Shown here: positions 42,448 through 58,117 of the stretch, piece by piece
Layout: every line of letters starts with the position of its first letter
Position numbering within the stretch: the first letter of the stretch is position 1
Assembly: GCF_031195445.1 (NCBI RefSeq)
Contig: NZ_CP133480.1
Coordinates: 62,001 to 126,000 of the forward strand
DNA from: Acuticoccus sp. MNP-M23
Lineage (GTDB): Bacteria; Pseudomonadota; Alphaproteobacteria; Rhizobiales; Amorphaceae
DNA: 64,000 nucleotides
Reading direction: 5' to 3'
Program-made: the position numbers and the translations under genes
The notes under the pieces: generated by a model
What the model saw: only the letters and a program-made list of their open reading frames with translations
Database searches by the model: none
Told to the model about the DNA's origin: nothing

Positions 42448-43134
42448 TCACCCCACCGCGCTGACGGCAAAGCGGAACAGTGAGCGGATGTGCGCCGCCA
42501 CCGCGCGGCGCGTGGCCTTGGCATCGCCCGCCTCCAGCGCGTCGAGGATCAGCTCGTGCTCGCGCGAATCGGGTTCCAGGCGGTCGACCAGCCGGTCGAT
42601 TTCGAAGAGCTGGGTGGTGACGCGCAGCGACAGGATGATCCGCGTCATCACTTCGTTGCCGCAATGGTCGATGAACAGCCGGTGGACCTCGTCGTCCGAC
42701 CGCCAGTGGGCCAGCATGTCGTAGGGGCGGCTGGCCCGCACGCTCTCCAGCGCCTGCCGCGCGTGGGCGATGGACGCCTCCGGCACGCTGCCGGCAGCCA
42801 GCGCCGCAGCCTCCGCCTCCAGCGTCTCGCGCACGCGCAGGCTCTGGAGATATTCCTTCAGCTCGACCTGCCGCACGATGTGGCTGCGGTTGGCCACCTT
42901 GCGCAACAGTCCTTCTGCCTCCAGCCGCTGCATGGCGTGGCGCAGCGGCGTGCGCGATACGCCGAGCCGCGCGGCCAGGTGCTGCTCCACAAGCGGCTCC
43001 CCCGCGCGCAGCTCACGCTCGCGGATGAGAAGGCTGAGCGACTGGTAGGCCTGGTCCGACAGCGTGCCCCGCGGCCGGATGGCGGCCGGCGGAAGGTCTG
43101 GCCCGTTTTCGTCTCTGCGCGCGTCAACACTCAT
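42448..43134 (-). CDS. GntR-family (FCD/FadR-type) transcriptional regulator
   Basis: A winged helix (residues about 20-85) contains SLLIRERELRAGEPLVEQHLAARLGVSRTPLRHAMQRL-type GntR sequence, and the C-terminal FCD domain (about 90-225) has DEVHRLFIDHCGNEV and VAAHIRSLF, giving the Asp/His metal or acid-binding pocket typical of regulators of amino acid, hydroxy-acid or sugar-acid use. ATG 43134 has GAGG 9 bp upstream; a TTG at 43149 is in frame. It is divergent from the M20-like/ABC/oxidoreductase operon and likely represses it and itself; two GTATAC palindromes lie in the intergenic region. Confidence 0.9.
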   Translation of the reverse strand: MSVDARRDENGPDLPPAAIRPRGTLSDQAYQSLSLLIRERELRAGEPLVEQHLAARLGVSRTPLRHAMQRLEAEGLLRKVANRSHIVRQVELKEYLQSLRVRETLEAEAAALAAGSVPEASIAHARQALESVRASRPYDMLAHWRSDDEVHRLFIDHCGNEVMTRIILSLRVTTQLFEIDRLVDRLEPDSREHELILDALEAGDAKATRRAVAAHIRSLFRFAVSAVG

Positions 43135-43182
43135 GATGCCCAGCCTCAAAACCGCTGGATCGCGGTTGCCTGTACGGCAAGT

Positions 43183-43309: not shown

Positions 43310-43348
43310 CGAGTGTGTTCTATTCGTGCAATTTGGTGGAGAGATACG

Positions 43349-44641
43349 ATGGCGGACGGTGTTGCAGACGAGACCATGGAGACCAGGGCGCTCGCGCTTC
43401 TGCGGTCCCTCGTTGCCGCGCAGCCCCAGGGCGAAGCCGCCGTGCAGGCCATCATCGCCGAACGCCTGAAGGCCGCGGGCTGCACCGTGGAAGAACTCAC
43501 CTACGAGCCGGGCAAGGTGGAGCTTGTGGGCGAGTTTGCGTCCGACGCGGTGCGCAACGCCGAAACCCGCACCGCCATCGTCGGTCGCCTCCCCGGCGCT
43601 GAGGGCAAGGCCAGCCTGATGATGTTCGCCCACCCGGATGGCGAGCCCGCAGACGACACGTCAGGCTGGACCCACCCCGCCTTCGAAGGCACCGTCGACG
43701 GCGGCAAGCTTTATGGCTGGGGTGTCGCGGACGACCTCGCGGGCTGCGCCTCCGCGGTGCTTGCCATTGAGGAAGCGGCGAAGACGCCGGGCCTTGGCGA
43801 GATCATCTTCGCCTCCACGCCCAGCAAGCGCCACGCCCGCGGCGTCTCGGCGCTGATGCGCAAGGGGCTGACGGCGGATGCCTCGCTCTACCTCCACCCA
43901 GCCGAATCCGGCGTCGGCATGCGCGAAATCAAGACCGTCGCGTCCGGCCAGCTTGAATTCAAGGTGACGGTGGAAGGCGGCCTGCCATCCACGACCGAGC
44001 CCGGCCACACCGCCTTCTCCCACCTTGCCGACAACGCGGTCGACAAGTTCGTCCTCCTCCACACCGCGCTGAAAGCGCTGGCGGCGGACCGGGCGAACCG
44101 CATCCGCCATCCGCTGATCGAGGCCGAAGTCGGCCGCGCCACCAACCTTCATATCTCCACGGTCGCCTGCGGGCCGATGAAGAAATTCTCCCGCCTCAAC
44201 ACCCTGCTCGAGTTCGGCGGTGCCATCGCCTTCCCCCCCGGCGAGACGCTGGACGAGGTGAAGGCCGAGGTGGAAGGCGCCATCGCCAAGGCTGCCGCGG
44301 ACGACAAGTGGCTCGCCGAGCACCCGCCCGTCGTCACCTGGATGAGCGGCGTCACCGGCGCCGAAGTCGGCATGGACAGCCCGCTGTGGGAAGTGTCGAG
44401 CGCGGCGGTGGAGCGCATCACCGGCCAGCCGCCGCACGTCAACCCGATGCACACCTCCAGCGACATCCGCAACCCGATGGTGCAGGCCGGTATCCCCTGC
44501 GTCGGCCTTGGCTGCCTGTGCGGCGATCTCTCCCAGAATGGCCGCCACGACGAGTGGGTCGATGCCGCCGACTTCATCCGGATGGTCGACGTGGCCGCCG
44601 CCGTGACGACCGACTGGTGCAGCCGCCCCCGCGGCGCCTGA
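43349..44641 (+). CDS. M20-family-like hydrolase (metallopeptidase fold), atypical active site
   Basis: The 430-residue protein matches the M20/M25/M40 (acetylornithine deacetylase/aminoacylase) layout: MMFAHPDGEP with the metal pair His95 and Asp97, GWGVADDLAG with Asp128/Asp129, a dimerisation-domain section at about 195-320, and NGRHDEWVDAADF with His400 near the end. The usual catalytic/metal Glu-Glu pair after the bridging Asp (normally in an xEExG-type stretch) is missing; that place reads ASTPSKRHARG (residues 156-165). Either the family variant uses other residues or activity differs. ATG 43349 follows GGAGAG. First gene of the operon divergent from GntR. Probable role: hydrolysis of an N-acyl amino acid, amide or peptide. 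Confidence 0.82.
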   Translation: MADGVADETMETRALALLRSLVAAQPQGEAAVQAIIAERLKAAGCTVEELTYEPGKVELVGEFASDAVRNAETRTAIVGRLPGAEGKASLMMFAHPDGEPADDTSGWTHPAFEGTVDGGKLYGWGVADDLAGCASAVLAIEEAAKTPGLGEIIFASTPSKRHARGVSALMRKGLTADASLYLHPAESGVGMREIKTVASGQLEFKVTVEGGLPSTTEPGHTAFSHLADNAVDKFVLLHTALKALAADRANRIRHPLIEAEVGRATNLHISTVACGPMKKFSRLNTLLEFGGAIAFPPGETLDEVKAEVEGAIAKAAADDKWLAEHPPVVTWMSGVTGAEVGMDSPLWEVSSAAVERITGQPPHVNPMHTSSDIRNPMVQAGIPCVGLGCLCGDLSQNGRHDEWVDAADFIRMVDVAAAVTTDWCSRPRGA

Positions 44642-44696: not shown

Positions 44697-45536
44697 ATGG
44701 CACTACGACACCTTCTCCTCGCCGCGGCCAGCACGCTGGCGTTCGCCGGCGCGGCCCACGCGCAGGACTGCCCGGCCGACCTTCCGGTGGTGGAAGACGG
44801 CAAGCTCACCATGTCGATCAACGCCACCATCCCGCCGACGCAGTACATCGACGAATCGGGCGAAATTGTCGGCCTCAACCGCGAGCTGGGCGACGAACTC
44901 GCCAAGCGCCTCTGCCTTGAGCCGGAATACAAGAACGTCTCGTTCGAAGTGCAGATCCCCGGCCTCGCCTCCGACCGCTGGGACATGATCAACACCGGCC
45001 TCTACTACACCCCCGAGCGCGCCAAGATCATGAAGCTCGTCCCCTACCGGGTGAACGCGCTGGCGCTGATTGCGCAGGCGAACAACCCCCTCGGCCTCAC
45101 CGGCCCGGAAGACCTTGCCGGCCATGTGGTGGGCGTCGAGATCGCCGGCTTTGAAGAAAAGAAGCTGCGCGAACTCAACGACTCGCAGGTCGCCAAGGGC
45201 CTGGATCCGATGGATATCCGCGTCTTCAACACCTATGGCGACACGTTCCTGGCGCTGGGCGCAGGCCAGCTCGACGCCGTGTTCGCCGGCGACAGCATCG
45301 GCACCTACTACCAGGAGCAGGGCCGCTTCACGAAGCCGGTGACCGGCCTCCTCCCCGGCACCCCGTCTGCCTTCGCCACCGACGAGATGGCGCTCGGCGA
45401 AGCGATCAGGGATGCCCTCACCGCAATGAGCGAGGACGGCAGCTACCAGGAGATCATGAAGAAATTCGGCGCCACCACCATCGACGCATGGTCCGAATAT
45501 CCGGGCGGCTTCGAGGTCTTCTACACCCCCGAGTAA
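44697..45536 (+). CDS. Amino acid ABC transporter substrate-binding protein
   Basis: A signal peptide (residues 1-22, ending GAAHAQ) is followed by an SBP_bac_3 fold: TMSINATIPPTQYIDESGEIVGLNRELGDELAKRL, IPGLASDRWDMINTGLYYTPERA and a second-lobe segment VGVEIAGFEEKKLRELNDSQ. The 279-residue length suits polar amino acid or opine binders (HisJ/ArtI class). ATG 44697 has AAAGGA upstream. A hairpin follows it before the permease gene. The ligand is not identifiable from sequence. Confidence 0.93.
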   Translation: MALRHLLLAAASTLAFAGAAHAQDCPADLPVVEDGKLTMSINATIPPTQYIDESGEIVGLNRELGDELAKRLCLEPEYKNVSFEVQIPGLASDRWDMINTGLYYTPERAKIMKLVPYRVNALALIAQANNPLGLTGPEDLAGHVVGVEIAGFEEKKLRELNDSQVAKGLDPMDIRVFNTYGDTFLALGAGQLDAVFAGDSIGTYYQEQGRFTKPVTGLLPGTPSAFATDEMALGEAIRDALTAMSEDGSYQEIMKKFGATTIDAWSEYPGGFEVFYTPE

Positions 45537-45576: not shown

Positions 45577-45626
45577 CCCTTGTTCGGGAGGCAGCCCTCC
45601 CCTGTTGCTTGAGAGAGGCGCCGGTC

Positions 45627-46367
45627 ATGAACTGGAGCTGGGACCACTTCTTCCGCTACCTCACCAGCCCGTTCCTGCTGGAAGGGGTGATCAACACGGT
45701 GTGGCTGGCGATCGTCGCCATGATCATCGGCGTCTCGCTGGGCGTTGTGCTCGCCTTCATGCGCATGTCGAAGAGCCGGATCCTGCGCTTCGTCTCCGGC
45801 GTCTACATCTGGCTGTGGCGCGGCACGCCGCTCCTCGTCCAGCTCGTCATCATCTACACCGGGCTGCCGCAGCTCGGCATCCGCCTCGGCGTGATCGAAA
45901 GCGCCATCCTCGCGCTTTCCCTGCACGAAGGCGCCTACTTCGCCGAAATTGCCCGCTCCGGCATCATGTCGGTCGGCAAGGGGCAGGAGGATGCCTCCCG
46001 CGCGCTGGGCATGACGTGGTGGCAGCGGATGAAGATCGTCATCATTCCGCAGGCGACCCGCATCATCATTCCGCCGCTCGGCAACCAGTTCAACCTGATG
46101 CTGAAGACAACCTCGCTCGCCTCCGTCATCTCGATGGAAGAGCTGCTGCGCCATGCCCAGCAGCTGGCGCAGATCGAGTTCCGCGTCCTCGAAGTCTATT
46201 TCTGCGCGGCCATCTGGTACCTCTTCCTCACCACCGTCTGGGGCCAGGTGCAGATCCGCCTCGAAGCGCACTACGACCGCCCCTTCGGCCCGGCGGGCGG
46301 CGACGACCGCTCCACCCGCCAGAAGGTTCTCGACAAGTTCCGCGGCCCTGCCGCCACCCAGGCATGA
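45627..46367 (+). CDS. Amino acid ABC transporter permease
   Basis: A 246-residue HisMQ/GlnP-type permease with about five helices. EAA loop reads [34 protein letters not shown], the ATPase contact. [22 protein letters not shown] is the typical N-terminal helical region of polar amino acid permeases. ATG 45627 has GAGAGAGG 8 bp upstream; a TTG at 45609 is in frame. Only one permease gene is present, so the transporter would be a homodimer. Stop overlaps the ATPase start (ATGA). Confidence 0.94.
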
Positions 46368-47206
46368 CGGAGACCGCCATGGAAAACGTCGCGCCCAATC
46401 TCAACGTCCGCACCCCGCGCGCTGCCCGCACGCTCGGCGAGCCCATTGTCGTCGCCGACCGCGTGTCGAAAAGCTTTCACGGGGTCCCCGTGCTGCACGA
46501 GGTGTCGCTCACGGTGCGGCAGGGCGAGGTGGTGGTTCTGGCCGGCCGCTCGGGGTCCGGCAAGTCGACCTTCCTGCGCTGCATCGACCAGCTGGAAACC
46601 ATCGATGGCGGCACGATCCACGCCTGCGGCCATCTGATGGGCTTTCGCGAGGGCAAGGGCGGCAAGCTGACCCCGCTGAAGGACCGCGAGGTTGCAAGGC
46701 AGCGGCGTGATCTCGGCATGGTGTTCCAGTCGTTCAACCTCTTCCCGCACCTCACCGTGCTCGACAACATCACCGTCTCGCCCGTAAAGATCATGGGCGC
46801 CGACAAGGCGGCGACCACGGCTCACGCCCGCGAGCTTCTTGAGCGCGTCGGCCTGCCGGACAAGGCGGACGCCTACCCCGGCCAGCTCTCCGGCGGGCAG
46901 CAGCAGCGCGTCGCCATTGCCCGCGCGCTGGCGATGAAGCCCAAGGTGATGCTGTTCGACGAGCCCACCTCCGCGCTCGACCCCGAAATGATCTCCGAAG
47001 TGCTCGACGTGATGATCGACCTTTCCACCGAGGGGATGACGATGATCGTCGTCACCCACGAGATGGGTTTTGCGCGTGCTGCCGCCGACCGCACGCTCCT
47101 GATGCACGACGGTCGCATTGTGGAAGACGCGCCGCCCGAAGAGTTCTTCACCAATCCCAAAAGCGAGCACACCAAGCTCTTCCTCTCCAAGATCCTGCAG
47201 CACTGA
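46364..47206 (+). CDS. Amino acid ABC transporter ATP-binding protein
   Basis: The 280-residue ATPase of the HisP/GlnQ class has Walker [11 protein letters not shown]-loop [18 protein letters not shown], signature [15 protein letters not shown], Walker [16 protein letters not shown] and H-loop VVTHEMGFA. An N-terminal 25-residue extension precedes the core, slightly longer than usual. ATG 46364 overlaps the permease stop. The PTE-family gene begins 2 bp after it, so all are on one message. Confidence 0.95.
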
Positions 47207-47208
47207 GC

Positions 47209-48231
47209 ATGGGCGTCGTTCGCACCGTATGCGGGGACGTGGCGCCGGAGGCGATCGGCCCGGCCATGTTCCACGAACACGTCCTGTTCGACATCGTGCC
47301 GCCGGGCGCCCCCGGAGACCGGAGCGCCGCGATAACGCCCGCCAACCGCTGGCAGATCGACTACCGCTCCAACGAAACCCCGGCCAACGCGCACCAACAG
47401 GACGTCGACGTTGCGGCTGAAGAACTGCGCGCGTTCTCTGCCGACGGCGGCGCGCTGATCGTCGACCAGTCCGTCGCGGGGCTGGCGCGCGATGCTGCGG
47501 GGCTGGCGCGGGCCAGCGAAGCGTCCGGCGTGCATGTGGTGGCGGCAGCCGGCACCTACACCGCGCCATTTCTCTCGGCCGAAACCATTGCGGCCAGCGC
47601 CGAGATGCTGGCCGACCGCTTTACGGCCGAAATCACCACCGGGCTCGATGGCACGACCGTTCGCGCCGGGCTCATCGGCGAGATCGGCTGCTCCTGGCCG
47701 ATGGTGCCCGTTGAAGCGCGCGCGCTGGAGGCCGCGGCAGGCGCGCAGGCGCGCACCGGCGCGGCCATCAGCGTTCACCCCGGCCGGCATCCGGACGCGT
47801 GCGGTGCCATTCTCGATATTCTGGAGGGTGCCGGCGCCGACCTTTCGCGCGTGGTCCTTTGCCATATGGACCGCACCTGTCCGGACGGAACGGGTATCCG
47901 TCCGCTGCTGGAGCGCGGCGCCTGCGTGGAATGGGATTTCTTCGGCATCGAGCAATCGCACTACTGGATGGGCGCGGTAGAGCTTCCCACCGATCTTGCG
48001 CGCCTGCGCTTCATTGCCGCCCACGCAGACGCGGGCTTCGGCGACCAGATCACCATCAGCCACGACATCTGCACCAAGACGCGGCTGACCCGCTGGGGCG
48101 GCCACGGCTACGGCCACATCCTGCGCAACGTGCGCCCGCTGATGGCCCGCCTCGGCTTTTCCGACTCTCTCATCGCCGCGCTTTGCCGCGACACGCCCCT
48201 CAGGCTTTTGACACTCAAGGAGGCCGTCTGA
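47209..48231 (+). CDS. Phosphotriesterase-family (PTE/PHP) metal-dependent hydrolase
   Basis: A TIM-barrel amidohydrolase of 340 residues. Metal ligands are visible in order: His22 and His24 (FHEHVLFD), the bridging residue Glu158 (LIGEIGCS), His190 (ISVHPGRH), His219 (LCHMDRTC) and Asp286 (ISHDICTKT). The bridging residue is Glu, not carboxylated Lys, as in the PHP subgroup of E. coli YhfV type. C-terminal GGHGYGHIL is also characteristic. PTE-family enzymes cleave lactones, phosphoesters or N-acyl bonds. Here it is likely a lactonase or amidase in amino acid breakdown. ATG 47209; the stop overlaps the next ATG (TGATG). Confidence 0.88.
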   Translation: MGVVRTVCGDVAPEAIGPAMFHEHVLFDIVPPGAPGDRSAAITPANRWQIDYRSNETPANAHQQDVDVAAEELRAFSADGGALIVDQSVAGLARDAAGLARASEASGVHVVAAAGTYTAPFLSAETIAASAEMLADRFTAEITTGLDGTTVRAGLIGEIGCSWPMVPVEARALEAAAGAQARTGAAISVHPGRHPDACGAILDILEGAGADLSRVVLCHMDRTCPDGTGIRPLLERGACVEWDFFGIEQSHYWMGAVELPTDLARLRFIAAHADAGFGDQITISHDICTKTRLTRWGGHGYGHILRNVRPLMARLGFSDSLIAALCRDTPLRLLTLKEAV

Positions 48232-49124
48232 TGGCCCGGTTTCGCGGTACCTATACCGTCATGATCACAGCGTTCGATGCCAGCGGCGCGCTCGACCTCG
48301 ACGCCCTGGCGCGGTTCACCAACTGGCAGATCGACGAAGGCATCCACGGCCTCATCCCGCTTGGCTCCACAGGTGAGTTCCTGTCCCTCACCCCGGCCGA
48401 ACGCGAGGCTGTCGCAAAATGCGTCATCGACACGGCAGCGGGCCGCGTGCCTGTGCTGATAGGCGCCGGGGCCGAGCGCACCGAGGACGTGATGGACAAT
48501 GCAAGAATGTCGCGCGACCTTGGCGCCGACGGGATCATGGTGATCCCCCCCTTCTACTCCACGCCCACCCGGCCCGAGCTTTACCGGCACTACGAGCGCA
48601 TTGCCGGCGCCACCGATCTGCCGGTGATGATCTACAACAACCCCGCCACCGCCAACGTGGACCTGACGCCGGAGATCGTCGCCGAACTCAGCCAGATCGA
48701 GCACATCGACTACATCAAAGAATCCACCATGGACGTGACGCGGGTGCGCGACATCATCGACCTTTGCGGCGAGCGGATGACCGTGTTCGGTGGCATCATG
48801 GGGTATGAATCATTTTGCAACGGGGCTGAGGGCTGGGTCGCGGTGGGCTCCAACCTTCTGCCGCGCGCCTGCGCCGACCTCTTCACGCTGACCGCCGACA
48901 AGGGCGACCATGCGGCCGCCCGCGCCCTTTACGCGGAGATCCTGCCGGTGATCCGCCTTGTGGGCGGGCACCGCTATGTGGCCGCCACCAAGGCTGCGCT
49001 GGCGTTGATGGACCTTGGCGTCGGCGAGCCGCGTGCACCGCGCCTGCCGGTCCCCGCCGAAGAGATGGAGATGGTGCTGTCCGCCATGCGGGCAACCGGG
49101 CTCCTCCCCCAGCGCGCCGCCTGA
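48231..49124 (+). CDS. Dihydrodipicolinate synthase/N-acetylneuraminate lyase-family protein
   Basis: This class I aldolase-fold protein has 297 residues with Schiff-base Lys163 (YIKESTMD), Tyr135 (MIYNNP) and the GSTGEF loop at residues 45-50. The family includes DapA, NanA, KdgD and Delta1-pyrroline-4-hydroxy-2-carboxylate deaminase (LhpC/HypD). DapA itself for lysine would normally be alone, and another DapA-like gene lies at the window end. In this operon, immediately before an LhpFEB-like fused oxidase, a role as lyase or deaminase on a cyclic imine or 2-oxo acid is more likely. The start overlaps the PTE gene stop. Confidence 0.88.
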   Translation: MARFRGTYTVMITAFDASGALDLDALARFTNWQIDEGIHGLIPLGSTGEFLSLTPAEREAVAKCVIDTAAGRVPVLIGAGAERTEDVMDNARMSRDLGADGIMVIPPFYSTPTRPELYRHYERIAGATDLPVMIYNNPATANVDLTPEIVAELSQIEHIDYIKESTMDVTRVRDIIDLCGERMTVFGGIMGYESFCNGAEGWVAVGSNLLPRACADLFTLTADKGDHAAARALYAEILPVIRLVGGHRYVAATKAALALMDLGVGEPRAPRLPVPAEEMEMVLSAMRATGLLPQRAA

Positions 49125-49125
49125 C

Positions 49126-51969
49126 TTGCCGCAAGGCTTCACCTTCACGTTCGGCGGCGTGCCGGTTGCAGCGCGCCCCGGCGACAGCATTGCCGCCGCG
49201 CTGGAGGCCGCCGGCATTCGTGCTCTCGGCACCAGCCGCGCCGGGCGCGCACGCACCCATTTCTGCGGCATGGGCGCCTGCCAGGACTGTGTGGTGGCAG
49301 TGGATGGCGCCCTGTCGCGCCGGGCATGCCTCACCACCGCAAGACCCGGCATGGTCGTGGTCCCCCAGCACGACGGCCAAACGATGCCGGCGCCCGTCCC
49401 GGTCGAAACGACACCGGCTGAGAATCTGTCTTGCGACTGTCTGGTGATCGGCGCCGGACCGGCCGGCCTTTCGGCTGCAATCGGCGCGGCTGAGGCCGGG
49501 CTCTCGGTTACGGTGCTGGACGAGCGCGGCGAACCCGGCGGCCAGTATTTCAAGCCCCCCAGCGACGGGCATCGCGGCAATGAGGCACGCGACCGGCAGC
49601 ACCGGCGCGGCGATACGCTTCGCGCGCGCTTTGCAACCAGCGGCGCAACGCTGTTTGCCGGAGAAACCGTGTGGTTTGCGCGCGAAATGCCCGGGCACGG
49701 ATTTCAGGTACGCACTGTGTCGGGGGTCCGGCAGCGCGTGTTCGCCGCAAAGGCGGTGCTGGTCGCCGCTGGCGCCATGGAGCGGCCTGCCATCGTCCCC
49801 GGATGGACTTTGCCCGGCGTCATGACCATCGGCGCCGCGCAGACCCTTGCGCGCCGATACGGCATTGCGCCGGGCGGGCGAGTTCTGGTGGCCGGCAACG
49901 GTCCGCTCGGCCTGCAACTGGCCGCCGAACTCATCGACCTTGGCGCCAACGTGGTTGCGGTGGTGGAGCGTGCCCCCTTCCGCACCACAGCCCTTGCCCG
50001 GCTTGCGCTTGCCGATCCGGGCCTGGCACGCGATGGCGCCGCGTATCTCCTGAAACTGCGGCGTGCGGGCGTACCGCTCCTGTCCGGCTGGTCGGTCGAG
50101 GCGCTGGAGGGGCACGACGAGGTGCAGATCGCACACTTGGCCGGCGAAGGCCGGACCCGAACCATCGCAGTGGACTCGGTTGCCATGGGCGACGGCTTTC
50201 AGCCCCAGATGGAGCTTGCCCGCCTTCTCGGCGTCCCCCTCGGCGACACGCCGCAAGGCGCGGCGCCAATCCGCGGCGACGATGGCGCGACCGCCGTTCC
50301 CGGCGTCTTTCTCATCGGCGATGCGGCGGGGCTTGGCGGCGCCCAGGCTGCGCTTGCCGAGGGCAGCCTCGCCGGTGCCGCCGCTGCCCGCTATCTCGGC
50401 CGCACCGCGGCGGACGACGGCAGCGCACGAAAGCGGCTTCAAAAGGCCCGCCGCTTTCAGGCCGCCTTGTGGCGTGCCTATGCGGCGCCTGCGCTGCCCG
50501 CGCCTTCTGGCGATACGCTGGTGTGCCGCTGCGAGCATGTGACCGCAGGCGAGATCGCGGACGCCATCATCGCCGGCGCGCGCGATCCGGGCGCCGTCAA
50601 GCGCGCAACGCGCTGCGCCATGGGGCGCTGCCAGGGCCGCATCTGCACGGGCGCACTCCTGAAAATTCTCGAACGAAAGGGCGCTGCCGCGCCGCCTCAG
50701 GCGTTGTTTGCGCCGCAGGTGCCCGCACGTCCCATTCCCGCCGCCGCGCTAGTGGTCGAAAAGCCGGAATGGGCCGGGCACCGCGAAAGCAGCCCCGCCG
50801 CCCGCCCCGCCGTGGAACCGGACGTGCCGCTTGAGGTTCACACCGCCGATCTGGTGGTGATCGGCGCCGGCGTCACCGGAATGTCGGCCGCGCTGTTTGC
50901 CGCCAGAACCGGCGCGCGCGTGCTGGTGCTCGACCGCGGGCGGATCAATGGCGAGGCCTCCGGCGGCAATGCCGGCAGCCTTCACCTGCAGCTCCTGTCC
51001 TGGGACTTTGGCGCCAAGGCGCTGGCCGGCGGGTCGCCCGCACTTCTGACGCTGCCGCTCCAGAAGGAATCCATCGCACTGTGGGGTGAGCTGGAAGACC
51101 AGCTTGGCGCCGACTTCGAGATGCGCGTCACCGGCGGACTGATGGTGGCCGAAGACGAAACCCAGATGGCCTTTCTGCGCGACAAGGCGGCAGCCGAAGG
51201 GCGCCACGGCATCCACACCGAAGTTGTCGGCCGCGACGAGATCCGCACGCTAGTCCCCGCCATCTCGGAGCGGATGGTGGCCGGCGCCTGGTGCCCCGGC
51301 GAGGGCAAGATCAACCCGCTGGCCGCAACGGCCGCCCTGGCGCGCGCAGCTAAAGCAGCGGGCGTGACGGTGGAGGAGCTGACACCCGTCACCGCCCTCA
51401 ACGCCGATGGCGAATTCTACCGCGTCGCGACACCGCGCGGCACGATCGAAGCCCGCCGCGTGCTGGTTGCCGCGGGCGGATGGTCCGCGCACATCACCCG
51501 GCTTCTGGGGGTCGACGTGCCGGTGCGGGGCGCGCCGCTCCAGATGGTAGTGACCGAGACGGCGCCGCCGCTGGTGCCCTGCCTTCTGGCCCATGCCGAC
51601 CGCCACCTCACCATGAAGCAGAGCGACGCCGGCACGCTGCTCATCGGCGGCGCATGGACCGCCCGCACAGGTCCCACCGGCCAGCCCCAAGTGCTACCGG
51701 AAAGCCTTGAGGGCAATTTGTGGGTGGCCGCGCGCACCATTCCGGCGGTCGCCGGCCTCTCGGTGGTCCGCAGCTGGGCAGCCATGAACATCGACATCGA
51801 TACCGCGCCACTCTTGAGCGCTCTGCCCGGCCATCCGCGCGTGGTGGTGGCGGCAACCGCCAACGGCTACACGCTCGGGCCGTTCATGGGGCGCGAGGCG
51901 GCGGCCGCCGTTCTCTCCGGCCGCCTCCGCCAGGATCTTGGCGGCCTGACGCTGGACCGCTTCGGCTGA
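49126..51969 (+). CDS. Triple-fusion amino acid dehydrogenase: 2Fe-2S, FAD/BFD and DAO modules (HcnA-HcnB-HcnC-like)
   Basis: A 947-residue protein joining modules that are normally separate subunits. Residues 5-85: Fer2_4 [2Fe-2S] domain with Cys47, Cys52, Cys55 and Cys68. Residues 100-460: FAD/NAD oxidoreductase (GAGPAG near 109). Residues 465-520: BFD-like [2Fe-2S] region, Cys467, Cys469, Cys497, Cys502 and Cys507 in CRCEHV and CAMGRCQGRIC. Residues 575-947: DadA/DAO-type FAD domain (GAGVTG near 580, ending GYTLGPFMG). Counterparts are HcnA/HcnB/HcnC (glycine to HCN) and LhpF/LhpE/LhpB (D-hydroxyproline dehydrogenase), and opine oxidases. TTG 49126 begins 1 bp after the DapA-like gene stop; no Shine-Dalgarno site is seen, so translation is coupled. 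The order matches HcnA, HcnB, HcnC. Substrate unknown. Confidence 0.9.
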   Translation: MPQGFTFTFGGVPVAARPGDSIAAALEAAGIRALGTSRAGRARTHFCGMGACQDCVVAVDGALSRRACLTTARPGMVVVPQHDGQTMPAPVPVETTPAENLSCDCLVIGAGPAGLSAAIGAAEAGLSVTVLDERGEPGGQYFKPPSDGHRGNEARDRQHRRGDTLRARFATSGATLFAGETVWFAREMPGHGFQVRTVSGVRQRVFAAKAVLVAAGAMERPAIVPGWTLPGVMTIGAAQTLARRYGIAPGGRVLVAGNGPLGLQLAAELIDLGANVVAVVERAPFRTTALARLALADPGLARDGAAYLLKLRRAGVPLLSGWSVEALEGHDEVQIAHLAGEGRTRTIAVDSVAMGDGFQPQMELARLLGVPLGDTPQGAAPIRGDDGATAVPGVFLIGDAAGLGGAQAALAEGSLAGAAAARYLGRTAADDGSARKRLQKARRFQAALWRAYAAPALPAPSGDTLVCRCEHVTAGEIADAIIAGARDPGAVKRATRCAMGRCQGRICTGALLKILERKGAAAPPQALFAPQVPARPIPAAALVVEKPEWAGHRESSPAARPAVEPDVPLEVHTADLVVIGAGVTGMSAALFAARTGARVLVLDRGRINGEASGGNAGSLHLQLLSWDFGAKALAGGSPALLTLPLQKESIALWGELEDQLGADFEMRVTGGLMVAEDETQMAFLRDKAAAEGRHGIHTEVVGRDEIRTLVPAISERMVAGAWCPGEGKINPLAATAALARAAKAAGVTVEELTPVTALNADGEFYRVATPRGTIEARRVLVAAGGWSAHITRLLGVDVPVRGAPLQMVVTETAPPLVPCLLAHADRHLTMKQSDAGTLLIGGAWTARTGPTGQPQVLPESLEGNLWVAARTIPAVAGLSVVRSWAAMNIDIDTAPLLSALPGHPRVVVAATANGYTLGPFMGREAAAAVLSGRLRQDLGGLTLDRFG

Positions 51970-51977
51970 GCTGCGGC

Positions 51978-53120
51978 TTACGAGACGAACACGTCTTCGC
52001 CCTTGCCGTCCGGCATCTGTTCGGGCCGCTGGCAAGAGGTGGTCATCTGGATGCGGCTGTCCTCGCTCGCGGCCCGTTCCAGCCCCTCCATCACCTCAAG
52101 CACATGAAGCGCAAGGCTTCCGTTCGCCCTGTGCGGCCGGCCTGACTGAATGGCGGCGGCCATGTCGAACACGCCCACCATCCGGTAGTCGGCCGCCTGC
52201 CGTCCGTCGCGCATCTCGCGGTTGGGATCGCCGAAGGGAAGCGCGTTGTCGGTCATGTCCACAAAGTCCCCCGCGCGGTCGGACACGAGAACCGGGCCGC
52301 CGAAGAAGTTGGGGTCCGGGTTCTGGATCGTGCCCTCGGTGCCATAAAGCTCAATGGGCGGACGGCCGTGCTTCCACACGTCCCACGATGCGGTGAGCGC
52401 CACGTTCGCCCCGCCGGCAAACGAAAGGATGCCGTTGACGGTGGTGAACACCTCCACCGGAATATCCTCGCCCTTGCGCGGACCGGAGCCGACGATCCGC
52501 ACCGACCGCGGCCGGCTTGCATGGGCGATGACACTGGCGACAGGGCCAAGGCAGTTGACCAGCTGAGTGATGGGATAGCAGCCGATATCGAGCACCGGCC
52601 CGCCGCCACGCTGGTAGAAGAAGAACGGATTGGGATGCCAAAGCTCCGCACCCGGCGTGGCGAAGGTGGCCGCACCGCCGGTGATGGTGCCGACGCGCCC
52701 GGCGTCGATCAGCTTGCGCACGCTCTGGTGGCCGCGGCCCAGAAACGTATCCGGCGCACCTCCAATGCGCACGCCTGCGGCATCGGCCTTCGCGGTCGTC
52801 TCCTTCGCTTGCGCAAAACTCACCGCAAACGGCTTTTCGGTATAGACGTGCTTGCCCGCCGCGATGATCGCGCCGTTGACCTCGGCGTGAGCCGCCGGGA
52901 TCGTGAGGTTGATGACAATCGCAATCTCCGGGTCGGCCAGAAGGTCGGCCACGGTGCTGGCGCGAACGTCGTAGGTTTCGGCCTTGGCTCTGGCGGCGTC
53001 CATGTTGGCATCGGCCACGGCGGCGACCCGCACCAGCGCGGAGCGCGCGGCGCCCTTCAGGTAGGCATCGGAGATGTTGCCGCAGCCGATGACGCCGAGT
53101 TTGACGGTTTCCATGGCCAT
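51978..53120 (-). CDS. Gfo/Idh/MocA-family dehydrogenase
   Basis: The 380-residue protein starts METVKLGVIGCGNISDAYLKGA with a Rossmann GxGxxx motif, then the family EKPFA segment (VYTEKPFAVSF; catalytic Lys), and GGPVLDIGCYPITQLVNCLG with the Asp/His-type active site helix. Such enzymes oxidise sugars or inositols, or reduce the reverse, with NAD(P). Its start overlaps the stop of the isomerase gene (TGATG). It is last in the LacI-regulated sugar operon, so it probably oxidises the imported sugar. It converges with the 947-residue flavoprotein gene. Confidence 0.92.
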   Translation of the reverse strand: MAMETVKLGVIGCGNISDAYLKGAARSALVRVAAVADANMDAARAKAETYDVRASTVADLLADPEIAIVINLTIPAAHAEVNGAIIAAGKHVYTEKPFAVSFAQAKETTAKADAAGVRIGGAPDTFLGRGHQSVRKLIDAGRVGTITGGAATFATPGAELWHPNPFFFYQRGGGPVLDIGCYPITQLVNCLGPVASVIAHASRPRSVRIVGSGPRKGEDIPVEVFTTVNGILSFAGGANVALTASWDVWKHGRPPIELYGTEGTIQNPDPNFFGGPVLVSDRAGDFVDMTDNALPFGDPNREMRDGRQAADYRMVGVFDMAAAIQSGRPHRANGSLALHVLEVMEGLERAASEDSRIQMTTSCQRPEQMPDGKGEDVFVS

Positions 53121-53890
53121 CAGCCGAAATTCCGGAGGATGAATTCGCGGCCCGTGCGCGCAAAGCGCACCGCGTCGGACGGCTTGTCGTGCTCCAGCAC
53201 CATCCACTTCACCCCGTGTGACTGGGCCTCGGCCCAGAGCATCGGCCAGTCCATGGTGCCATCACCAATGTCGGCCCAGCCATCCTCGTCCACATTCTCG
53301 CCAACGCGGGCAATGTCCTTCACGTGGACCGCGGTGACCCGCGCCCGCTCTGCCGCCATGATGGCGGCAGGGTCGGCTCCGCCGCGCACCAGCCAGGCAA
53401 GATCAGCCTCGAACGTCAGCGGCGAACCTGCGGCGCCGGCAAAGAGTTCGGCCAGCGGCGTGGAGCCGGTCTGGTAGGGCACCAGCTCCCAGTTGTGATT
53501 GTGGTAGCCGAGCGCGATGCCGTGGTCCGCCATCCGCTCCGCCGCGGTGCCAAGCTCTGCGCCCAGCGCGCGCCAGAATTCGGCGGGGCGGCCTTCGCGG
53601 TCCTCCGGCGGCACGGCAGGCATGTAGAGCTCTTCGATGCCGATGGTCCGGGCCTGCTCCACCACCCAGTCGAATTTTTCGCGCAGGTCAGCAAGGTTTA
53701 CGTGCCCCGTGGGTGCCGCCATGCCGTGCGCATCGAGGGCGGCACGAACTGAAGCCGCATCGGCAAGGTGGCGGCCGACCGTTTCGACGCGCTTGAAGCC
53801 GAGGTCCGCCAGCGCGTCCAGCTGGGCGGCCAGCTCGCCATACTCGCGCAGGGAATAGAGTTGGATGGAAAGTTCGTCAGCGATTGTCAC
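53120..53890 (-). CDS. Sugar phosphate isomerase/epimerase-family TIM barrel protein
   Basis: The 256-residue protein has the AP-endonuclease-2/xylose-isomerase-like TIM barrel: IQLYSLREYGELAAQLDALADLGFKRVETVG at the start, ALGYHNHNWELV (His metal ligand and Glu), and FEADLAWLVRGGAD. The motif GxHNHxxE is typical of sugar isomerase/epimerase and inosose dehydratase relatives that bind divalent metal. Start is GTG 53890. It lies between the ABC ATPase and MocA genes. Paired isomerase and MocA dehydrogenase genes are common in 3-keto-sugar or inositol pathways. Confidence 0.9.
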   Translation of the reverse strand: MTIADELSIQLYSLREYGELAAQLDALADLGFKRVETVGRHLADAASVRAALDAHGMAAPTGHVNLADLREKFDWVVEQARTIGIEELYMPAVPPEDREGRPAEFWRALGAELGTAAERMADHGIALGYHNHNWELVPYQTGSTPLAELFAGAAGSPLTFEADLAWLVRGGADPAAIMAAERARVTAVHVKDIARVGENVDEDGWADIGDGTMDWPMLWAEAQSHGVKWMVLEHDKPSDAVRFARTGREFILRNFG

Positions 53891-53920
53891 AGGGGTAGAC
53901 CTTGTTTGAGGCGCGGCGGT

Positions 53921-54997
53921 TCAGAGCCGGCGGCCTGACGCGGTATCGAAAAGGTTGAGACGGTCGAGGTCAGCCGCGAGGGTGACCGGCTGGCCGACGG
54001 CAGGCGCAGTGTCGCCGGGCACCCGCATTTGCAGGGCAACGGCCCCCTTGCGAACCCAGACCAGCGCGTCAGCGCCCAGCGGCTCCACAATGTCGACCTT
54101 GAAGCCGTCCCACCCGGTATCGCCAAGCGCCAGGTGTTCCGGGCGGACGCCGAGCGTCACCTTCTGACCAGGTGCCGGGGCAGTGTCGCAAATGGAGGCC
54201 GGCAATGCCGCGGTGACGGTGTCGCTCTCAAACACCGGTCCGCTGTCGCCGTGCGCAATGGTGCCCTCGATGAAGTTCATCTTCGGGCTGCCGACAAAGC
54301 CCGCGACGAAGAGGTTGGCGGGGCGGTGGTAGAGTTCGGCCGGGGCGCCGAGCTGCTGGATCTCGCGATCCTTCATCACGGCAATGCGGTCCGCCAGCGT
54401 CAGCGCCTCGATCTGGTCGTGGGTGACATAGATCATGGTGGTGGAGCCAAGCTCCATGTGGAGGCGCTTGATTTCAAGGCGAAGTTCGTTGCGGAGCTGC
54501 GCGTCGAGGTTGGAAAGCGGCTCATCGAAGAGGAAGACCTTGGCGTCGCGCACCAGCGCACGGCCGATGGCAACGCGCTGGCGCTGGCCACCGGAGAGCT
54601 GGTCGGGCCGCCTGTCGAGAAGATGCGTGATCTGTAGCATCTCGGCCGCTTCGGCGACGCGCTTCTCGATCTCGGGCTTGGCGGTCTTCGCCATCTTCAG
54701 CCCGAACGACATGTTCTGCCGCACCGTCATCCGCGGGTAGAGCGCATAGGACTGGAACACCATGGCGATGGACCGATCCTTGGGCTCCTCCCAGGTGACG
54801 TTGCGGTCGTCGATAAGGATCTTGCCGTCCTCGACATCGAGAAGGCCGGCGATGCAGTTGAGAAGGGTGGACTTGCCGCAGCCGGACGGGCCGAGGAGGA
54901 CGATGAATTCCCCCGCCGCAATGTCCAGCGAAAGCTTGTCGATGACTGTGAGCGCCCCGAAGGCGACCGAAACGTCCTGTACGGAAACAGCAGCCAT
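53921..54997 (-). CDS. Sugar ABC transporter ATP-binding protein (UgpC/MsmK type)
   Basis: The 358-residue ATPase has Walker A GPSGCGKST, Q-loop MVFQSYALYPRMTVRQN, signature LSGGQRQRVAIGRAL, Walker B FLFDEPLSNLDAQLR and H-loop THDQIEAL. Residues 245-358 form an OB/TOBE-type regulatory domain (LGVRPEHLALG), as in MalK/UgpC. It sits 4 bp after the permease gene stop and serves the carbohydrate transporter. Confidence 0.95.
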   Translation of the reverse strand: MAAVSVQDVSVAFGALTVIDKLSLDIAAGEFIVLLGPSGCGKSTLLNCIAGLLDVEDGKILIDDRNVTWEEPKDRSIAMVFQSYALYPRMTVRQNMSFGLKMAKTAKPEIEKRVAEAAEMLQITHLLDRRPDQLSGGQRQRVAIGRALVRDAKVFLFDEPLSNLDAQLRNELRLEIKRLHMELGSTTMIYVTHDQIEALTLADRIAVMKDREIQQLGAPAELYHRPANLFVAGFVGSPKMNFIEGTIAHGDSGPVFESDTVTAALPASICDTAPAPGQKVTLGVRPEHLALGDTGWDGFKVDIVEPLGADALVWVRKGAVALQMRVPGDTAPAVGQPVTLAADLDRLNLFDTASGRRL

Positions 54998-55000
54998 CGG

Positions 55001-55915
55001 TCAGCCCTTCACCGCGCCGGCGGCGATGCCGCGCACGAACCAGCGCCCGGAGATGAAGTAGACCGCAAGTGGCACAAGCGCCGTCATGAGGGTGGCGGCC
55101 ATATTGAGGTTGTACTCCTTCTCGCCAAAGTTGGAGTTGACGATGTTGTTGAGCTGAACGGTCATCGGAAGGTTTTCGCGGCCGGCGAAGGTGAGGCCGA
55201 ACAGAAAGTCGTTCCAGATGCCGGTGACCTGGAGGATCGCGCCGACGATGATCATCGGTGTCGACATCGGCAGGACGACGCGCAGAAAGATCTGCCAGAA
55301 GCCGCCGCCGTCGACCCGTGCGGCCTTGAAGAGTTCTATCGGCAGCCCGGCGTAATAGTTGCGGAACAGCAGCGTCATCAGCGGAAGACCGAAGATGACG
55401 TGAACGATGACGACGCACAGCAGCGAGTTGTAGATGCCGGTTGCCGCGAACATGCGCACCAGCGGGTAGAGGAACACCTGGTAGGGGATGAACGCGCCGA
55501 GCAGCAGCAGCGCGAAGATGACGTTGGCCCCCTTCACCCGCCAGAACGACAGCGCGTAGCCGGTGATTGCGCCAAGAGCGAGGGATGCAATCACCGACGG
55601 GATGAGGATCTGCACCGAGTTCAGGAACCCAACCGAAATGCCCTCGCATTCAAGCCCGGTGCAGGCGCCTGACCACGCCTTGGTCCAAGCCGCAAACGTC
55701 AACTCCATCGGCAGTGCGAAGATGTTGCCGAGGCGGATCTCGTCCATGGACTTGAGGCTGGTGACAATCATGATCCACAGCGGGATGAGGAAGAACGCCG
55801 CCGCAATGACGAGAAACGCATAGATGCCGACGCGGGCTGCGGTGAGACGGCGGGGGCGCCGGCCTGCCGGCTCCTGCGCTGCGCGTCCTGCGGTATTTTC
55901 AGTGGCGGCGGTCAT
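55001..55915 (-). CDS. Carbohydrate ABC transporter permease (MalG type)
   Basis: A 304-residue inner-membrane protein with six helices; the EAA loop reads ELFKAARVDGGGFWQIFLRVVLPMS. N-terminal basic region (RRPRRLTAARV) precedes helix one. ATG 55915 overlaps the MalF-type stop (TGATG). The same frame is open further upstream, but overlap and family length support this start. It follows the other permease gene on the same message. Confidence 0.93.
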   Translation of the reverse strand: MTAATENTAGRAAQEPAGRRPRRLTAARVGIYAFLVIAAAFFLIPLWIMIVTSLKSMDEIRLGNIFALPMELTFAAWTKAWSGACTGLECEGISVGFLNSVQILIPSVIASLALGAITGYALSFWRVKGANVIFALLLLGAFIPYQVFLYPLVRMFAATGIYNSLLCVVIVHVIFGLPLMTLLFRNYYAGLPIELFKAARVDGGGFWQIFLRVVLPMSTPMIIVGAILQVTGIWNDFLFGLTFAGRENLPMTVQLNNIVNSNFGEKEYNLNMAATLMTALVPLAVYFISGRWFVRGIAAGAVKG

Positions 55916-56832
55916 CAGCGGCGCCCTCCGTCGCGAATGTAGCGGGCGTACATCCATGGGGCGAGAATGATGGCGACGGTGATCAGCATCAGCGTTGCCG
56001 CGGAGGTGGCAAGGCCGATGTTCGCGCGCTCGAACAGGTGGTCCATCACGAACTTTGCCGGCACTTCGGAGGCAATGCCCGGCCCGCCCCCGCTCATGGC
56101 GACCACGAGGTCGTAAAGGCGGGCAACGCCGGTGGCCAGAAGCACCACGGCCGTGACAATCATCGGCCCCAGAAGCGGCAGGATGACGGAGAGGTACATG
56201 CGCCAGGGCGGAATGCCGTCCACGCGCGCCGCCTTCCAGAGATCCTCGTCGATGCCGCGAAGGCCCGCCAGAAGGATCGCCATCACAAGGCCCGCCCCCT
56301 GCCAGATTGCGGCCAGGACGATGGCGTAGACAACCATGTTGCGATCGACCACCCAGTCGAACTTGAACCAGCCGAAGCCGAGCTTGTGGACCGCGTTCTG
56401 CAGGCCCAGCGTGGGGTTGAAGATCCATTGCCAGACAAGGCCGGTGACCACGAAGGACATGGAGTAAGGGTAGAGGAAAATGGTGCGAAACACCGCCTCG
56501 TTGCGAACCTTCTGGTCGATGAACACCGCCATCAGGAAGCCGAGAACAAGGCAGCCGGCAATATAAAGCACGCCGAATATTGCGATATTCTCGACCGAGA
56601 CGAGAAAGCGCGAGCTGCTGACCAGCCGCTCGTACTGGCTGAAGCCCACCCAGTCGAGCTTGGGGAGCAGGCGTGAGGAGGTGAAGGAGAGGCGCACCGT
56701 CCACAGCATGCAGCCCACGTACACCACAAGGACGATCAGCGTTGTGGGTGCGAGCGCGATGGCCGCGGCGTACGGCAGGCGGCGGCGCTTGCGCGCGGGC
56801 GGCACGGGGGCCGCGTCAGTCACCGATGACAT
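55915..56832 (-). CDS. Carbohydrate ABC transporter permease (MalF type)
   Basis: A 305-residue permease with six helices; EAA loop reads LWKAARVDGIPPWRMYLSVILPLL. The basic start (ARKRRRLPYAAAIALAPTTLIV) leads to helix one. ATG 56832 is preferred; an open frame upstream to 56931 lacks similarity and would run through the intercistronic hairpin. It follows the binding-protein gene with a 58-bp gap that contains that hairpin. Confidence 0.93.
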   Translation of the reverse strand: MSSVTDAAPVPPARKRRRLPYAAAIALAPTTLIVLVVYVGCMLWTVRLSFTSSRLLPKLDWVGFSQYERLVSSSRFLVSVENIAIFGVLYIAGCLVLGFLMAVFIDQKVRNEAVFRTIFLYPYSMSFVVTGLVWQWIFNPTLGLQNAVHKLGFGWFKFDWVVDRNMVVYAIVLAAIWQGAGLVMAILLAGLRGIDEDLWKAARVDGIPPWRMYLSVILPLLGPMIVTAVVLLATGVARLYDLVVAMSGGGPGIASEVPAKFVMDHLFERANIGLATSAATLMLITVAIILAPWMYARYIRDGGRR

Positions 56833-56852
56833 CTGGTTCCCTCGGGCATGCT

Positions 56853-56882
56853 CGTGCGGCGGGGCCTCTGCCCCGCCGCACG
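56853..56882 (-). terminator. Intercistronic hairpin, sugar binding protein to permease
   Basis: A perfect 13-bp stem (56853-56865 with 56870-56882) and a 4-nt loop lie 8 bp after the stop of the minus-strand binding-protein gene. There is no T tract. It is the third such element in this window. Confidence 0.8.
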
Positions 56883-56890
56883 ACACTCGG

Positions 56891-58117
56891 TCAGTATGCC
56901 GATTCCATGGCGGAGACGAAGTTCTCGACAAAGTCGTCGGGCGTCATGGCGGGGGAGTTCCAGTATTCGGTAATCACGTCGCGCACCGAGCCGACGAGGT
57001 CGGGCGAGTAGAAGTTGTTGCTGGGCACCTGGGCCTCTGCATTCTGCAGCGCCTCCATGCCGGCCTGCGCGCAGGCGTCCATGGACGACACGTCAACATC
57101 GAGGCGGGCGGGGACGGAGCCCTTCTTCTCGTTGAAGGCAACCTGCACGCCCGGGGACAGCATCAGCGCTGCCATCTTGTCCTGCGCCGCCGCAGCAGCC
57201 GCATCGTCCACCTTGGGGAAGACGAACACGTCGCCGCCCATCATGTAACCCCCGGGCATGATGGTGCAGCCATAGTCCGTTCCGGCGGTGAGGCCGGCTG
57301 CGATGAATTCGCCCTTGGCCCAGTCGCCCATGACCTGCGCGGCGGCCTTGCCGGTCAGGACCATGTTGGTCGCCTCGTTCCAGTTGCGGCCGGGGCTGCC
57401 CTCGTCGACCAGCGCGCGCAACTGCGCAAACACTTCGGCGGCCTTGCGGAATTCGGCGCCGCGCGCAGCTTCGGTGTCCACGTCGCCGTAGATGGCCTTC
57501 ATCAGGCCCGGGCCGCCCTCTTCCAGCAGCACCGCATCGAACAGGATGTTGTCCTGCCAGTTCTGCCCGCCGTGGCCGAGCGGGATGACGCCGGCTTCCC
57601 TCAGCTTCGGCCCGGCGGCAATCAGCTCCGCAAACGACTGAGGCTGCTCGACGCCGGCATCTGCCAGCACCTTGAGGTTGGTGAACAGCCAGTTCTGGCC
57701 GTGAATGTTGACCGGAACCGCATAGAACTTCCCGTCGCGGCTGGCGGCATCGGCAAGGGCGGCGGGCAGGACGCTGCGCCAGTCGTTTTCGCCGGCGACG
57801 CTTTCAAGGTCGCGCAGGAGCCCGTTGCTCACCAGCTCGACGAACTGGCCGCCCGTGTTGAACTGCATCACGGTCGGCGGATTGCCGCCGACGATGCGGT
57901 TGACGCCGGCATTGCGCGCAGCCTGACCGCCCGCGATGGCAGTGTCGATCCAGTTGCCGCCTTCGTTGTTGAATTCGTCGGCAAAGACCTTCACGGCGGC
58001 GGACTCGCCACCGGAGGTCCACCAGTGGAGCACCTCGGCGTCCATCTGCTGAGCCTGCGCGCCGTGGGGCAGCAGGACGACGCTGGATGCAAGGAGAGCG
58101 GCACGGATGATTTTCAT
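56891..58117 (-). CDS. Sugar ABC transporter substrate-binding protein
   Basis: A signal peptide (residues 1-23, ending GAQAQ) is followed by an SBP_bac_1 fold. The segment EVLHWWTSGGESAAVKVFADEF and FYAVPVNIHGQNWLFTNLKVL, plus GDWAKGEF, closely resemble glucose/mannose-binding proteins of the GtsA type. The 408-residue length is normal. ATG 58117 has GGGAGG upstream. It is the first gene after the LacI operator, so it is expected to be the most strongly regulated. Monosaccharide is likely; identity unproven. Confidence 0.92.
   Translation of the reverse strand: MKIIRAALLASSVVLLPHGAQAQQMDAEVLHWWTSGGESAAVKVFADEFNNEGGNWIDTAIAGGQAARNAGVNRIVGGNPPTVMQFNTGGQFVELVSNGLLRDLESVAGENDWRSVLPAALADAASRDGKFYAVPVNIHGQNWLFTNLKVLADAGVEQPQSFAELIAAGPKLREAGVIPLGHGGQNWQDNILFDAVLLEEGGPGLMKAIYGDVDTEAARGAEFRKAAEVFAQLRALVDEGSPGRNWNEATNMVLTGKAAAQVMGDWAKGEFIAAGLTAGTDYGCTIMPGGYMMGGDVFVFPKVDDAAAAAAQDKMAALMLSPGVQVAFNEKKGSVPARLDVDVSSMDACAQAGMEALQNAEAQVPSNNFYSPDLVGSVRDVITEYWNSPAMTPDDFVENFVSAMESAY

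Follow-up and report, generated by a model that had tools for sequence, protein, structure and literature searches.

A fused HcnABC-like chain in Acuticoccus sp. MNP-M23, a putative amino acid dehydrogenase with a constant DHDPS-family partner gene

In Acuticoccus sp. MNP-M23 a single gene encodes HcnA-, HcnB- and HcnC-like modules in one polypeptide, and this fused architecture is a family that extends across alpha-, beta- and gammaproteobacteria and is shared with dozens of other bacteria. Sequence and fold place the protein alongside OdhABC, D-hydroxyproline dehydrogenase and archaeal L-proline dehydrogenase. The HcnABC / LhpBEF / OdhABC / L-ProDH superfamily is characterized by separate subunits, but here there is one open frame, and the protein is therefore not a standard superfamily member; it represents a variant architecture within a known enzyme class, not a separate kind of enzyme. 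The best explanation, to which we assign a probability of a little under 60%, is that it is a single-chain representative of the group formed by HcnABC and the D-hydroxyproline, opine and archaeal L-proline dehydrogenases and would oxidize an amino acid, followed by the action of a DHDPS-family lyase. Positions refer to the window, which is the whole stretch of 64,000 nucleotides that was analyzed. The fused gene and its parts are:

49126..51969, + strand: single-chain Fer2_4 / Rossmann / BFD / DAO protein, putative dehydrogenase, 947 aa (translation and Pfam)
49141..49368, + strand: Fer2_4 [2Fe-2S] domain, gamma or HcnA-like, residues 6-81, with C47, C52, C55 and C68 (Pfam, alignment)
49435..50364, + strand: Pyr_redox_2 region, alpha or HcnB-like, residues 104-413 (Pfam; profile match to 1y56_A and 2gag_A)
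50518..50673, + strand: Fer2_BFD region, residues 465-516, with C467, C469, C502 and C507 (Pfam, alignment of 40 chains)
50674..50841, + strand: linker, residues 517-572, with EKPEWAGH at 50758-50781 (residues 545-552) (alignment)
50848..51906, + strand: DAO domain, beta or HcnC-like catalytic module, residues 575-927, with R882-S-W884 as putative FMN motif (Pfam, alignment)

Translation gives a single open frame of 947 codons with a TTG start and no internal stop, as the preliminary description of this DNA had stated. The mechanical frame extends back to a TTG at 49015 (984 aa). The TTG at 49126 lies 1 base past the stop of the DHDPS-family gene and its product matches the N-terminus of relatives (e.g., L043) in an alignment, and on these two grounds it appears to be the best-fitting start. 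All four domains (Fer2_4, Pyr_redox_2, Fer2_BFD and DAO) score above the Pfam cut-offs.

Motif conservation was followed in an alignment of 40 fused chains, in which the others are 36-63% identical to the window's chain. All eight cluster cysteines (C47, C52, C55, C68, C467, C469, C502 and C507) and both ADP-binding GxGxxG motifs (G109/111/114 and G580/582/585) are kept in 40/40 chains. The proposals that Cys47/52/55/68 lie in the Fer2_4 domain and that the chain holds two FAD folds, the second with the DAO domain, are thus borne out, the latter also by the Pfam domains. The BFD cysteines had been described as a CxC plus a CxxxxCxxxxC and here the description holds in part: C467, C469, C502 and C507 are invariant in the 40 chains, but the C497 column is variable (Leu 13, Ala 12, Ile 4, Met 4) and therefore the four ligands of the second cluster are likely C467, C469, C502 and C507. 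PMC4575208 gives a set of motifs as family features, including RxW as a putative FMN site. The gamma motif C-X4-C-X2-C-X11~12-C is formed by C47, C52, C55 and C68, with a last gap of X12, and is found in 48/48 fused sequences; the alpha motif C-X-C...C-X4-C is formed by C467-X-C469 and C502-X4-C507; and RxW in the beta module is formed by R882 and W884 (40/40), with R.W also in 8 further fused rows. The middle gap of the alpha motif, which the same paper gives as X15~20, is 32 in the window's chain and 31-33 both across the 48 fused sequences and in 18 split alpha frames.

One of the questions that such a long frame raises is whether a sequencing or assembly error has joined separate genes. 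This worry was raised in the preliminary description, which pointed to about 50760, and separate-gene relatives do exist. Yet, when named records were scanned with one genome for each species, the whole chain lies in one frame at 38 of 41 related loci, and in the remaining three (L042, L062 and L066) the contig ends inside the gene. The suspected site falls on the conserved linker stretch 50758-50781, which is in frame in relatives. Along the linker, an EKPEWGGH-like stretch comes after a tail FAPx.P.[RK]P that two-gene relatives also have where their alpha protein ends; the EW..H of this stretch, which lies at the BFD-DAO junction, is found in 48/48 fused sequences and was not seen among the 18 split alpha tails listed. 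With 38 full-length one-frame loci in other records and a linker motif that is invariant across the suspected site, the artefact is rejected and its probability is negligible.

The fused form is widespread but rare. The check suggested earlier, to look for the same one-chain architecture elsewhere, finds it in many species: sources of fused loci include Rhodobacterales, Hyphomicrobiales, Acetobacteraceae, Granulosicoccus and Vibrio, and Variovorax is a betaproteobacterial carrier. In genome counts that each include the window's own genome, it was found in 2/10 genomes of the window's family (its own and G005), in 3/385 genomes of the class draw, among 7 matches, and in 4/398 genomes of the phylum draw, where the fifth match is the N-terminal half alone (E <= 1e-90 in both draws). 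A plasmid search gave 15 records at E <= 1e-60, and in 10 of them a single place covers 80% or more of the query; these matches include Azospirillum, Rhizobium, Agrobacterium vitis and Aureimonas, and a product name is shown at 6 of the 15, each time 'FAD-dependent oxidoreductase'. The contig of L042 is filed as Lentisphaeria bacterium (metagenome bin) and carries a piece that is 61% identical to the window's chain; this contig is possibly misplaced, hence it was left out of any spread beyond Proteobacteria. It had been considered that the architecture might already be common and characterized. It is indeed shared by many species, but no characterized case was found: a search of the open-licence literature, mostly titles and abstract starts, gave no described single-chain enzyme, and on that basis the fused architecture is apparently uncharacterized.

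Relatives with separate genes support the original idea that HcnA-, HcnB- and HcnC-like modules were fused. In the two-gene sets (L076, L077, L082, L083, L084 and L085) Fer2_4 is joined to the HcnB-like module and DAO is separate; the DAO gene is second, with an overlap of 8 to 17 bases, in L076, L082, L083 and L085, first in L084 and apart in L077. Three-gene sets are found in Leisingera (L086; order beta, gamma, alpha) and in Acidisoma (L087), where the genes stand in the fused order (Fer2, alpha, beta); next come a DHDPS-family gene and GntR, and genes for a dihydropyrimidinase and an ABC transporter are close by. The fused module order is seen in 5 of these 8 split sets (L076, L077 and L082-L087). 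Identity to the window's DHDPS-family protein is 28% for the Acidisoma one, versus 58% for the partner at the fused locus L063 and 62% for that at L048, and therefore the Acidisoma context is analogous but not clearly the same pathway.

Module trees were built with 40 of the 48 fused rows, 6 two-gene rows and 12 three-gene alpha rows (9 beta); near copies (L033, L035, L051, L053, L054, L056, L057 and L064) were dropped, and L009, L013, L016 and L088 were excluded. A number of the split frames are mechanical, with uncertain starts, and the label 'three-gene' for L010-L020 and for the neighbors of L041/L046/L052 means only an alpha frame without the Fer2 motif. The DAO-module tree sets all fused rows apart (SH-aLRT 80) and carries a warning about long branches meeting each other. 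For the HcnB module the tree requires 3 changes, two-gene rows falling among the fused rows at modest support, and the number stays at 3 when the two longest rows are removed; one fused clade is not rejected in this tree (AU p 0.335). A single origin of the fusion is favored, mainly from the shared linker, rather than demonstrated. Fused and split forms also occur together: in ten Acetobacteraceae loci (L046, L047, L049, L051-L054, L056, L057 and L064) the fused gene lies ~6 kb from a separate HcnB-like gene, located at about 0-2.2 kb, with a DAO-like frame beside it in nine. The fused cluster of L031 is adjoined, at about 13-18 kb, by three frames (417, 100 and 996 aa) that, from their sizes and clustering, look like a sarcosine oxidase operon.

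The fused gene follows six others in the order M20, SBP3, permease, ATPase, PTE and DHDPS, and a GntR-type gene is divergent from this operon:

42448..43149, - strand: putative GntR-type regulator, divergent (blastp cluster shared with frames annotated GntR in L067-L070)
43313..44641, + strand: M20-family peptidase/deacylase (PF01546)
44697..45536, + strand: family 3 solute-binding protein, SBP3 (PF00497)
45609..46367, + strand: amino-acid ABC transporter permease (PF00528; TIGR01726 over cut-off)
46370..47206, + strand, approximate start: amino-acid type ABC transporter ATPase (PF00005; best NCBIfam EhuA 310.9 bits, below the cut-off of 345.4)
47209..48231, + strand: phosphotriesterase-family (PTE) hydrolase (PF02126)
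48231..49124, + strand: DHDPS-family lyase, stop 1 base before the fused gene (PF00701)

Within 8 kb, the DHDPS family is present at all 49 fused loci, together with ABC ATPase (43), SBP3 (41), permease (41), M20 (35), GntR (34), DUF3830 (30), PTE (23) and HydA (12), as counted by blastp labels that were built from the same loci and are generic for ABC, permease and GntR. For the 41 loci with at least 5 kb on both sides the counts are DHDPS 41, ABC ATPase 39, SBP3 37, permease 37, GntR 31, M20 30, DUF3830 24, PTE 18 and HydA 11. The L031 row is centered on another long frame and undercounts the other neighbors; the usual set is present there. The first account of the fused gene was right about the fusion and missed the wider family and this constant partner (49/49). 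Comparing the window with L063 and L048, the fused chains are 36% and about 43-46% identical, lower than the 58-62% of their DHDPS partners. The window's DHDPS-family protein scores 192.2 against dapA TIGR00674, a near miss of the 206.15 cut-off, and shares 32% identity with L117, the best DHDPS match in the genome. In an alignment, 'PAT' stands opposite the DapA stretch 'PGR', whose Arg is a substrate-binding residue.

The genes that could cleave an amide differ: 32 of the 49 loci have M20 and/or PTE without HydA, 8 have HydA alone, 4 have both and 5 neither. DUF3830 was not found in the window operon, is present elsewhere in the genome (G000:C1:218308-218682) and returned no papers in the open-licence literature search. 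The genome also has a second cluster (L137, G000:C1:1354000-1371000), where a D-hydantoinase gene (over cut-off) is accompanied by genes for a DHDPS-family protein and an amino-acid ABC transporter and in which no frame matches the dehydrogenase modules. Downstream in the window, at 51978-58117, a converging cluster carries GFO/IDH/MocA and IolE-like genes (Pfam) and, judging from its frames, an apparent sugar ABC transporter; sugar genes of a similar kind also border the fused locus of Azospirillum (L067), perhaps by chance.

How might such a chain work? OdhABC holds 2 FAD and 1 FMN, the FMN being between alpha and beta; one [2Fe-2S], in gamma, is assigned per alpha-beta-gamma unit, although ~7.5 Fe were measured and a second motif in alpha was noted (PMC4575208). 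From this iron content and second motif, a second [2Fe-2S] cluster is likely in the fused chain, and from the retained motifs, including RxW, an FMN between its halves is likely as well. The preliminary count of two FADs and two [2Fe-2S] clusters agrees with the conserved cluster and ADP motifs but was incomplete, since it omitted the FMN suggested by OdhABC and by RxW in 40/40 chains. We infer the cofactor content, electron path, acceptor and substrate class as follows. The amino-acid ABC transporter would import the precursor, an N-acylated or cyclic amide/ureide compound, and M20 and amidohydrolase-type enzymes would probably release the amino acid from it; the amidohydrolase-type candidate is the PTE-family protein in the window and a D-hydantoinase at certain other loci. 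The FAD-bearing DAO domain would oxidize the amino acid and pass electrons to the FMN lying between it and the HcnB-like part, from where they would reach an acceptor, probably the respiratory chain, by way of the HcnB-like flavin and the [2Fe-2S] centers; this acceptor, and a dehydrogenase as opposed to an oxidase reaction, are proposed by analogy only. The fusion may, as first proposed, fix this electron flow. The resulting imine or 2-oxo acid would pass to the DHDPS-family lyase, whose gene directly precedes that of the fused chain. When hydroxyproline is degraded, a DAAO-family enzyme likewise acts before a DHDPS-family deaminase (PMC4113996), which suggests by analogy the same two-step logic for the fused enzyme and its constant partner. 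The amide-cleaving genes differ among the 49 loci and therefore the precursor may vary by locus, or this idea may be wrong.

The modules and the DHDPS-family partner are the same as in the known hydroxyproline route, and one option is that the fused enzyme serves it. However, no proline racemase/hydroxyproline epimerase family gene is in the operon; the genome's only PF05544 copy over the cut-off lies at C1:2666914, ~2.5 Mb away, and because this gene is elsewhere the option is quite unlikely. In a congener, moreover, the DHDPS-family protein encoded near an epimerase-family gene (L116) has 30% identity to the window's over 233 residues, and hydantoinase, M20 and PTE genes would not be expected in such a route. 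Somewhat less improbable, but still unlikely, is a dehydrogenase of opines or other secondary amines (N-carboxyalkyl amino acids), in which case the transporter would import the conjugate; this reading would fit the shared modules and motifs of OdhABC and the amino-acid ABC transporter that adjoins most fused loci. Yet opine cleavage to an amino acid and a 2-oxo acid has no need for a DHDPS-family lyase or an amidohydrolase, and no ornithine cyclodeaminase or opine synthase was seen among the annotated neighbors in the incomplete gene table of the plasmid loci L067-L070.

A narrower form of our main reading takes the substrate to be a D-amino acid liberated from the ring of a hydantoin or dihydropyrimidine-like compound. 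HydA-type genes in 12/49 fused loci, with both proteins tested above the NCBIfam dihydropyrimidinase (D-hydantoinase) cut-offs, and the HydA-type gene by the Acidisoma three-gene set make it possible, but the window operon has no HydA and 32/49 loci have M20 and/or PTE without it, which leaves it doubtful. Going further, we may tentatively suggest an undescribed widespread pathway in which the one-chain dehydrogenase and a dedicated DHDPS lyase act on an amino acid derived from an N-acyl or cyclic-ureide compound, with the EW..H linker holding the FMN or passing electrons and not serving as a mere tether.

The strict DHDPS-family pairing points to an uncharacterized catabolic route in Proteobacteria. 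The opine oxidases were hard to purify and preserve (PMC4575208); in an enzyme class whose other members have two or three subunits, a natural single chain fixes the stoichiometry and would ease cofactor counting, structure determination and work on the electron path.

A structure model of the fused chain was predicted with 40 sequences and without cofactors (mean pLDDT 89.3, pTM 0.89). Model confidence is lower in the linker (71, 88, 81, 62 and 72 in the blocks of 521-570) and is 65-67 at residues 611-640, a conserved loop of the DAO part. The top Foldseek rows are the L-proline dehydrogenase alpha chain 1y56_A and then heterotetrameric sarcosine oxidase alpha and beta, with 1y56_B eleventh; the longest alignment among the best 50 rows covers 609 columns of the 947-residue query. 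In the PDB profile search, 1y56_A and 2gag_A match the N-terminal half and 1y56_B and 2gag_B the DAO half.

Among known systems, HcnABC hydrogen cyanide synthase has the same module types on three chains; it is described as related to OdhABC in PMC4575208. Compared by its description there, OdhABC shares with the fused chain the gamma, alpha and beta modules, the [2Fe-2S] motifs, the two ADP motifs and RxW, and the Burkholderia thailandensis gene order C-A-B is the module order of the fused chain; in contrast, OdhABC has three chains, opine substrates and other partner genes. LhpBEF D-hydroxyproline dehydrogenase, by its description in PMC4575208 and PMC4113996, is a heteromeric enzyme of the same superfamily that is followed by a DHDPS-family enzyme, but it consists of three chains and is epimerase-linked, whereas the fused gene has no epimerase nearby. 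Heterotetrameric sarcosine oxidase (2gag/1vrq) has alpha and beta chains that match the two halves of the fused protein, yet its chains are separate and the fused protein scores 157 bits against TIGR01372 (soxA, its alpha subunit), far below the cut-off of 1164. The L-proline dehydrogenase of Pyrococcus horikoshii (1y56, PH1363/PH1364) gives the top profile matches to both halves, and its alpha chain bears an N-terminal ferredoxin-like domain in the same chain; it differs in having two chains and, according to PMC1949818, an N-terminal domain without the cysteines.
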